DNA from: Bacteroidota bacterium
GTDB taxonomy: Bacteria > Bacteroidota > Bacteroidia > Sphingobacteriales > Sphingobacteriaceae
Reading direction: 5' to 3'
NCBI GenBank assembly: GCA_016868395.1
Contig: VGGW01000005.1
Span: 1 to 35,350, forward strand
Length of the DNA stretch: 35,350 nucleotides
The notes under the pieces: generated by a model
What the model was told of the DNA's origin: nothing
Databases searched by the model: none
The model's input: only the letters and a program-made list of their open reading frames with translations
Position numbers and translations under genes: made by a program
Shown: in pieces, positions 29,893 to 32,350 of the stretch
Numbering within the stretch: the first letter of the stretch is position 1
Layout: every line of letters begins with the position of its first letter

Positions 29893-30873
29893 ATGCTGCA
29901 ACTGTTATATCTTCCGGTATTAGCTTTAATACTCCTGTTTTATTTCAGGCTTGCGGTTCAGTTTAAAATAATTGATAAACCGAATCAGCGAAGTTCACAT
30001 TCCCGTATAACCATTCGGGGAGGTGGTATTATTTTCCCAATCGCGATCTTACTTCAAGCCCTATTCAGCGGCTTTCAATACCCCCTTTTTACTTCTGGTC
30101 TTTTACTTATCAGTATTGTCAGCTTTTATGACGATCTGAGACCTTTATCCAACAAGGTCCGGATTTTAGTACATCTGATTGCTGTTTCTTTGCTCTTCAT
30201 GCAGACAGGTTTGTGGACTTACCCGGTCTGGATTGTTATTCCAGTTTATATTCTGGTTATTGGTACTATTAATGCATATAATTTCATGGATGGTATCAAC
30301 GGGATTACTGGTGCATATAGCCTTATTACGATACTAAGCTTATATTTCATTAATGAATCTCATATTTCATTCGCTTTAAGTGAATGGCTGATTGTTGCCG
30401 CTCTATCTTTACTTGTATTCAATTTTTTCAATTTCAGGAAGAAGGCTAAATGCTTTGCCGGAGATGTAGGAAGTGTAAGTATGGCTTTTATCATTATTTT
30501 CTTTCTCTTATTGTTGATTATTCAAAGCGGAGATCTGAAGTATATCGGTCTGCTTTTAATTTATGGACTGGATACAGTGAGTACCCTGATTTTCAGGTTA
30601 ATCCGTAGGGAAAATATCTTTGAAGCCCATCGGAGCCATTTTTACCAATATCTGGTCAACGGCAAGGGCTGGCCTCATTTACAGGTTTCTTCCTTGTACA
30701 TGTTGGTACAGGTGCTCGTTAATGTAGTAATTATTTATTCTGATTGGGATGCATTTACCTTTCTGGTTTTTATTCTGCTTTCCGGACTGGCTTTTGTTGG
30801 GATGAGGTTTGTTGTGGAGGGAAGGGGGCGATTAATGGGGAAGGGATTAGCAAATGAGAAAATTAGCAAATGA
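29893..30873 (+). CDS. WecA/MraY-family polyprenyl-phosphate sugar-1-phosphate transferase, WbpL-like
   Basis: 326 aa polytopic protein; SSHSRITIRGGGIIFPIAI, SFYDDLRPLSNKVRILVHL, GTINAYNFMDGINGITGAYSL, CFAGDVGSVSMAFIIIF, RREN(I)FEAHRSHFYQ. Confidence 0.87.
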   Translation: MLQLLYLPVLALILLFYFRLAVQFKIIDKPNQRSSHSRITIRGGGIIFPIAILLQALFSGFQYPLFTSGLLLISIVSFYDDLRPLSNKVRILVHLIAVSLLFMQTGLWTYPVWIVIPVYILVIGTINAYNFMDGINGITGAYSLITILSLYFINESHISFALSEWLIVAALSLLVFNFFNFRKKAKCFAGDVGSVSMAFIIIFFLLLLIIQSGDLKYIGLLLIYGLDTVSTLIFRLIRRENIFEAHRSHFYQYLVNGKGWPHLQVSSLYMLVQVLVNVVIIYSDWDAFTFLVFILLSGLAFVGMRFVVEGRGRLMGKGLANEKISK

Positions 30874-30880
30874 GCAAATG
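30846..30880 (+). repeat. Short direct repeat ATTAGCAAATGAG (2 exact copies plus a partial) overlapping the 3' end and stop codon of the WbpL-like gene
   Basis: attagcaaatgag at 30846-30858 and 30862-30874, followed by caaatg; the CDS stop TGA (30871-30873) is inside the second copy. Confidence 0.7.
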
Positions 30881-30972: not shown

Positions 30973-31141
30973 CGCGGAATAATTTATTTTTTATTTCTCG
31001 CTAATACGCCAAGACGCGAATGGGTGCCGGCTAGAAAATCACTGGTTTGAGATGATCTATTTTGCGTCCCTGCGTCTCTGCGAGAGTTTTTTGTCGTGTC
31101 GGGTCAAGCCCACCATTGATAATGCCTTGTATGGGTACTAC

Positions 31142-31401: not shown

Positions 31402-31580
31402 CCCTGTAGTCGGTGTTCTCACCCTACCCCTGCCCTGTAGTCGGTGTTCTCACCCTACCCCTGCCCTGTGGTCGGTGTTGTCACCGTACCCCTGTGGTTG
31501 CCCTGTGGTTGGTGTTATCACCATACCACCTCCCTGTGGGTGCCCTGTGGTCGGTGATCTCACCATACCACCTCCCTCCA
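31402..31580 (+). repeat. REP-like hairpin repeat array, five units, upstream of the RAYT gene
   Basis: Units start with CCCTGT(A/G)G at 31402, 31433, 31464, 31501 and 31543. Units 1 and 2 are identical 31-mers (CCCTGTAGTCGGTGTTCTCACCCTACCCCTG). Each contains a GGTG...CACC hairpin core. Confidence 0.85.
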
Positions 31581-31660
31581 CCATATTCCGAATTCTCAAT
31601 CTTAGCTACCGCTTACTAATTACCCAAAAAAATTATTAGTCACTGGGTATAAGTTTAACC

Positions 31661-32173
31661 ATGAATCACGGAGACATGGAATTCTTCACTGTCACCTGCC
31701 TAAATTGGCAGACCTTACTTGATGAAGACAAACACAAACAGATAATCCTTGACAGCCTTGAATTTTTGGTCAAGGAGGAACGGATATGGCTCTATGCATA
31801 TGTAATTATGCCAAACCATATGCATGTACTTTGGCGCAAGCGTAACGACTGGATTGAAAAAAATGTTCAGCAGAATTTTCTCAAATATACCGCACAACAA
31901 ATTAAGTTCAACTTGCTTGATAACAATCCAAATGTACTGGCTAAATATACGAGTACACAAGGTGACAGGCAGTTTCATTTCTGGGAGCGAAGGGCCTACA
32001 GAGCCAGAATATTAACAAGAGCTGTGGCTGAACACAAAATAGATTATATACATTTCAACCCTGTTAAGGCTGGATATTGTAAACTGCCGGAGGAGTATTT
32101 ATTCTCTTCAGCCCAGTACTACTTTTTGAACCAAGGCAATCCTCTTCTTACTCATTACATGGAGCATCTTTGA
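31661..32173 (+). mobile_element. RAYT / IS200-like (Y1, HUH) transposase, 170 aa
   Basis: FFTVTCLNWQTLL, LYAYVIMPNHMHVLW (HxH), FWERRAYRARI, KIDYIHFNPVKAGYCKLPEEYLFSSAQYY (catalytic Tyr region). Flanked by REP-like arrays. Confidence 0.85.
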
Positions 32174-32188
32174 GCCTGAGCTGTGATA

Positions 32189-32314
32189 GGCTGGTACGGT
32201 GTTAGGCTGATACGGTGTTAGGCTGGTACGGTGTTAGACTGGTACGGTGTTGACTGGTACGGTGACAACACCGACCAGAGGGGACACCGACCAGAGGGGA
32301 CACCGCCCGGAGGG
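32189..32314 (+). repeat. REP-like tandem array downstream of the RAYT: ~5 units of GGCTGGTACGGTGTTA then ~3 units of ACACCGACCAGAGGGG
   Basis: Units at 32189, 32205, 32221, 32237 (15 nt), 32252, then 32268, 32284, 32300; 16-bp period. Segment 32256-32276 is the exact reverse complement of 31470-31490. Confidence 0.88.
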
Positions 32315-32350
32315 ATTTTTTTTTACATTCTAATGATTAATTAAAAATAC

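Follow-up and report, generated by a model that had tools for sequence, protein, structure and literature searches.

RAYTs are viewed as transposases that have been domesticated and are not mobile. The closest described systems are the RAYT/REP units of gammaproteobacteria, including the E. coli TnpAREP REPtron (Nunvar 2010, PMC2817692), in which a HuH/Tyr enzyme encoded by a single-copy gene is flanked by inverted REPs that are dispersed extragenically, form arrays beside the gene and carry a GTAG tag. TnpAREP is known to act on its REPs (PMC8266576). In the Bacteroidetes, TnpAY1 subclass 2.6 or RAYT group 5 (Quentin 2018, PMC6006769) combines an NHxH motif with flanking REP-like structures that lack GTAG and are copied elsewhere in the genome. 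No publication on RAYTs of Sphingobacteriaceae was retrieved in a literature search. The window analysed here is a stretch of 35,350 nucleotides (GCA_016868395.1, contig VGGW01000005.1, positions 1 to 35,350) from a draft genome that named relatives place in the genus Daejeonella. It very probably contains a REPtron, that is, a single-copy RAYT/TnpAREP, here from a Sphingobacteriaceae lineage, and the REP hairpins that belong to it. The locus shares with the gammaproteobacterial units the enzyme fold, the single gene copy, the inverted flanking REPs, the extragenic dispersal and the arrays beside the gene, but its REPs carry the tag CCTNT in place of GTAG.

The product of the intact ORF passed the curated RAYT model of NCBIfam (NF047646, REP_Tyr_transpos; 86.5 bits versus a cut-off of 80), and its match to Pfam Y1_Tnp was sub-threshold (15.2 bits versus 23). 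A phmmer search of the PDB identified 4ER8, the complex of E. coli TnpAREP with a REP hairpin (E 1.5e-6). The same entry was the best Foldseek match of the predicted structure (pLDDT 82; E 1.7e-9), followed by ISDra2 and IS608 TnpA, and is the closest solved structure by both sequence and predicted fold. IS608 and ISDra2, of the IS200/IS605 group, have this fold and hairpin substrates, but no multi-copy identical IS was present here and the closest solved structure is that of a RAYT rather than an IS TnpA. The protein has a HuH core with a single Tyr, along with the W and Y-x-x-x-N-P motifs, and the HuH histidines (H53, H55), Y129 and N133 were invariant across a 12-sequence alignment. The gene is the only RAYT copy in the draft genome and is under purifying selection (dN/dS of 0.08-0.13 versus the closest orthologues).

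With 170 residues, the protein is close in size to subclass 2.6 (median 179 aa). Its motifs, NHMH, WE and YIHFNP, compare with NH[LIV]H, WQ and YIH[QN]NP in that subclass (PMC6006769, Table 1), but WE and YIHxNP recall subclass 2.2, and the subclass assignment is therefore uncertain. In one relative (locus L052, genome G001), N takes the place of the first HuH histidine (MPNNLH) and the enzyme may be inactive, although that genome has ~20 exact REP copies.

An earlier note on this DNA had described an exact 21-bp inverted match between two arrays with an intact transposase gene lying between them, and this description was borne out. The sequence GGTCGGTGTTGTCACCGTACC (31470-31490) recurs, without a mismatch, in reverse complement at 32256-32276. 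By our own estimate, an exact 21-mer would be shared by chance between two regions of ~150 bp with a probability on the order of 1e-8. The match lengthens to 27 nt at 96% (31464-31490 and 32256-32282). The differing periods given in the note also stood (31-42 bp upstream and 16 bp downstream), but its view of the arrays as different repeats did not, as both are one hairpin that is amplified in two ways (Table 1). The upstream array comprises five direct REP copies at spacings of 31, 31, 37 and 42 bp, and its copies fold as separate hairpins, four of which are visible in the 132-nt stretch that was folded.

Downstream, five 16-bp units (32183-32264) precede three further 16-bp units (32268-32315). 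The unit GGTACGGTGTTAGRCT is one hairpin arm plus its flank, ACACCGACCAGAGGGG consists of the opposite arm and the inverted tag, and the two kinds of unit meet at a single complete hairpin (32256-32276). Because the two arms of the downstream REP are duplicated in tandem on either side of it, the region 32183-32315 folds as a single nested hairpin (z -5.4). A genome-wide search found the 16-bp unit at this locus only, which ruled it out as a second genome-wide repeat.

Table 1. Coordinates of the REP copies, RAYT gene and half-arm units in the window
Feature	Positions	Strand
REP copy 1, degenerate: CCTGT + AGTCGGTGTTCTCACCCTACC	31402..31428	+
REP copy 2, variant as in copy 1	31433..31459	+
REP copy 3: tag CCTGT + consensus hairpin GGTCGGTGTTGTCACCGTACC	31464..31490	+
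REP copy 4: compensated T-A stem variant GGTTGGTGTTATCACCATACC	31501..31527	+
REP copy 5, closest to the RAYT gene and oriented like it	31543..31569	+
RAYT / TnpAREP, 170 aa; HuH H53-M-H55, W108, Y129, N133	31661..32173	+
Tandem 16-bp units, one REP arm (GGTACGGTGTTAGRCT), this locus only	32183..32255	-
Downstream REP, complete and in the opposite orientation to the gene: consensus hairpin with tag CCTCT	32256..32281	-
Tandem 16-bp units, other REP arm + tag (ACACCGACCAGAGGGG)	32268..32315	-

Two other repeated sequences were observed in the window. A short tandem repeat, AGCAAATG, ends the glycosyltransferase ORF at 30846-30880, and similar sequence is present in the dnaE2 loci L078-L080. At 31080-31095, GCGTCTCTGCGAGA recurs in loci of other genomes (L098, L124, L127, L167) and is possibly another dispersed repeat.

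The REP itself is a hairpin of ~21 nt with an 8-bp stem and a 4-nt loop that usually reads TTNT; in most copies a single base is bulged out of the 3' arm. Its core was found in 56 copies (up to three mismatches) on about a dozen contigs of the source genome, whereas a reversed control pattern gave none, in agreement with the earlier expectation that the repeats extend beyond this locus. The REP clusters are extragenic and overlap only short ORFs that are probably spurious. Profiling of the base composition beside 51 REP copies of the source genome and 53 of its relatives revealed a fixed CCTNT tag directly 5' of the stem (44-51 of 51-53 copies at each fixed position) and no comparable signal on the 3' side. 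This tag ruled out the GTAG/GTGG-tagged REP superfamily; the CGTC-tagged superfamily, which lacks an associated transposase, was ruled out by the CCTNT tag and the adjoining RAYT. Stem position 4 covaries, as C-G or T-A (119 distinct sequences; Fisher p 4e-9, uncorrected for relatedness).

Close REP pairs in the source genome were head-to-tail in 41 of 46 cases, with a modal period of 26 bp, and one array (C7) has higher-order repeats of 85 bp. Arrays of this type are rare in the published families: head-to-tail pairs are described as under-represented or missing in those with a GTAG tag and as negligible in those with CGTC (PMC3733652). The predominance of head-to-tail pairs is also unlike BIMEs/REPINs, although inverted REP doublets do occur in several relatives and at a few loci of the source genome. 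At one relative's locus (L174, G314), REP doublets with a ~197-bp period lie on both sides of the RAYT gene in a BIME-like arrangement.

In other genomes, relatives of the RAYT gene (59-91% identity) likewise lie between copies of this hairpin. Within a first set of 41 genomes (the source genome and 40 relatives), all six with a RAYT orthologue had 9-109 REP matches, whereas 32 of the 35 without one had five or fewer and three had more (Fisher p 2e-5); palindromic copies were scored on both strands, so these match counts are not copy numbers. Three genomes had REPs with no detected RAYT (G017, which is only 87% complete, G008 and G011). In G008 (locus L114), REPs lie right after dnaE2, as if the gene had been lost. 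Across the family, the tagged REP was found in 38 of 301 genomes and the control in none. A second set was chosen across the family, its REP-bearing members lying outside the genus, and a close orthologue was detected in seven of 16 REP-bearing genomes versus none of 26 REP-free ones (p 4e-4). One of these seven orthologues carries a stop codon, and the nine REP-bearing genomes without a close orthologue mostly have a distant or truncated RAYT, or none.

REPs adjoined all 13 orthologues examined, mostly with the nearest upstream REP in the orientation of the gene and the nearest downstream REP inverted. Together with the first genome set, this upholds the proposal in the earlier note that the array is tied to this RAYT family in relatives. 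The 13 orthologues form one clade (support 100/99). The RAYT genes of its sister clade (L177, L178, L190; 42-46% identity) have another REP, GTTGGTGTTGTCACCAAC, on their flanks.

Comparison of the window with the loci of its closest relatives, L078, L079 and L080, revealed common sequence only from REP to REP (31470..32282). Given that the shared sequence stops at the REPs and the flanking genes are unrelated, the block of gene plus hairpins has moved from one location to another, perhaps through horizontal transfer. The earlier idea of a self-contained unit of RAYT and substrate fits this boundary. In L078-L080, the block sits between dnaE2 and a lactonase gene; these two genes are adjacent in G004, with neither RAYT nor REP. 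The RAYT genes of G001 and G020 occupy further genomic contexts. The REPtron is found as a single copy per genome, at different sites in different genomes. A dnaE2 orthologue was not found in the source genome at E 1e-200. In relatives, the site that the REPtron occupies in the window lies in a variable polysaccharide locus, and no clean empty site was found there because the 655-aa gene has different upstream neighbours from one relative to the next; the comparison was made instead at the dnaE2-lactonase site and in the carbonic anhydrase-P5CDH gap.

Synonymous divergence of the RAYT gene from the G010 group (dS 0.54-0.61) was low compared with that of gyrB (1.4-1.6) and P5CDH (1.6-1.7), and was also well below that of pglF and carbonic anhydrase. 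This is suggestive of transfer after the species split, although the control genes are near saturation. RAYT dS was also lower than that of P5CDH within the donor-like G010 group, however, so part of the difference is gene-specific.

Two routes to the relocated block were weighed, both compatible with the same boundary and dS data. Transposition as a unit, in which the REP-to-REP block including the gene is moved within or between genomes in an IS200-like manner, would account for the shared sequence bounded by REPs, the filled and empty states of the dnaE2-lactonase site, the further contexts in G001 and G020, and the low RAYT dS. It is nevertheless considered unlikely: each genome has one copy, no target duplication or cut junction was defined, an incoming REPtron could have integrated by homologous recombination with dispersed REPs, the dS difference is in part specific to the gene, and the order of the RAYT tree agrees with vertical descent within the genus. 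Horizontal acquisition followed by homologous recombination between REPs, with no self-transposition, is a plausible route, if somewhat short of probable. It is consistent with the REP-bounded sequence and the low dS, and REPs at both ends would be recombination sites, but no donor junction was identified and the variable locus around the window site offers no clean empty site.

Between the carbonic anhydrase and P5CDH genes, the source genome has a 591-bp gap with 20 REPs, whereas the gap in G010, G004 and G015 is 64-75 bp with no REPs, indicating that arrays were added between conserved genes in particular lineages; in G007 this gap holds a REP group of its own. From such arrays in otherwise short intergenic gaps, the repeats are possibly still amplifying, as the earlier note had suggested. 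Plain slippage of a hairpin-forming sequence, with no part played by the RAYT, could have produced head-to-tail arrays during replication, and would be in keeping with the 85-bp higher-order repeats and with half-arm unit periods that vary by locus (16/16 in the window against roughly 15/12 at L079). We find it doubtful as the sole origin of the arrays, because it leaves unexplained both the dispersal to many intergenic sites and the association with the RAYT. Half-arm duplications, moreover, seem commoner beside RAYT genes (six of 13 RAYT loci versus ~4 of 35 others, p 0.016, in a small and partly hand-counted sample).

The REPtron assignment has points against it, namely the sub-threshold Y1_Tnp match, the lack of a GTAG/GTGG tag, the modest REP copy number (tens) and the occurrence of REPs in some genomes without a RAYT. 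On the REPtron assignment, the RAYT likely made the dispersed REPs, judging from their association and from the activity of TnpAREP on its REPs (PMC8266576). In the mechanism that we infer, which extends to enzyme activity, cleavage position, amplification route and transposition, the HuH/Tyr enzyme would recognise the CCTNT tag and hairpin on single-stranded DNA, cut near the hairpin foot and rejoin REPs elsewhere or head to tail. Such rejoining would yield both the dispersed REPs and the arrays of 26-bp period, which corresponds to tag plus hairpin with no spacer. Repeated duplication of the downstream REP arms, through strand slippage or repeated cutting and rejoining at the foot, would give the nested hairpin. 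A bolder and rather improbable proposal is that this Sphingobacteriaceae RAYT lineage, which would recognise a bulged REP with a CCTNT tag, has kept its mobility. The REP-RAYT-REP block would then relocate as a unit, and the enzyme would both join REPs precisely head to tail, in arrays of 26-bp period, and make repeated duplicates of single hairpin arms next to its own gene, resulting in nested hairpins.

It is well supported that the REPtron is ordinary in kind and a clear further example, its unusual aspect being the tandem growth of its hairpins. Some genomes of the lineage have the gene and related ones lack it, empty sites exist for the arrays as well as for the gene block, and the substrate is compact and free of GTAG, which makes REP recognition and REPtron mobility testable outside the gammaproteobacteria.
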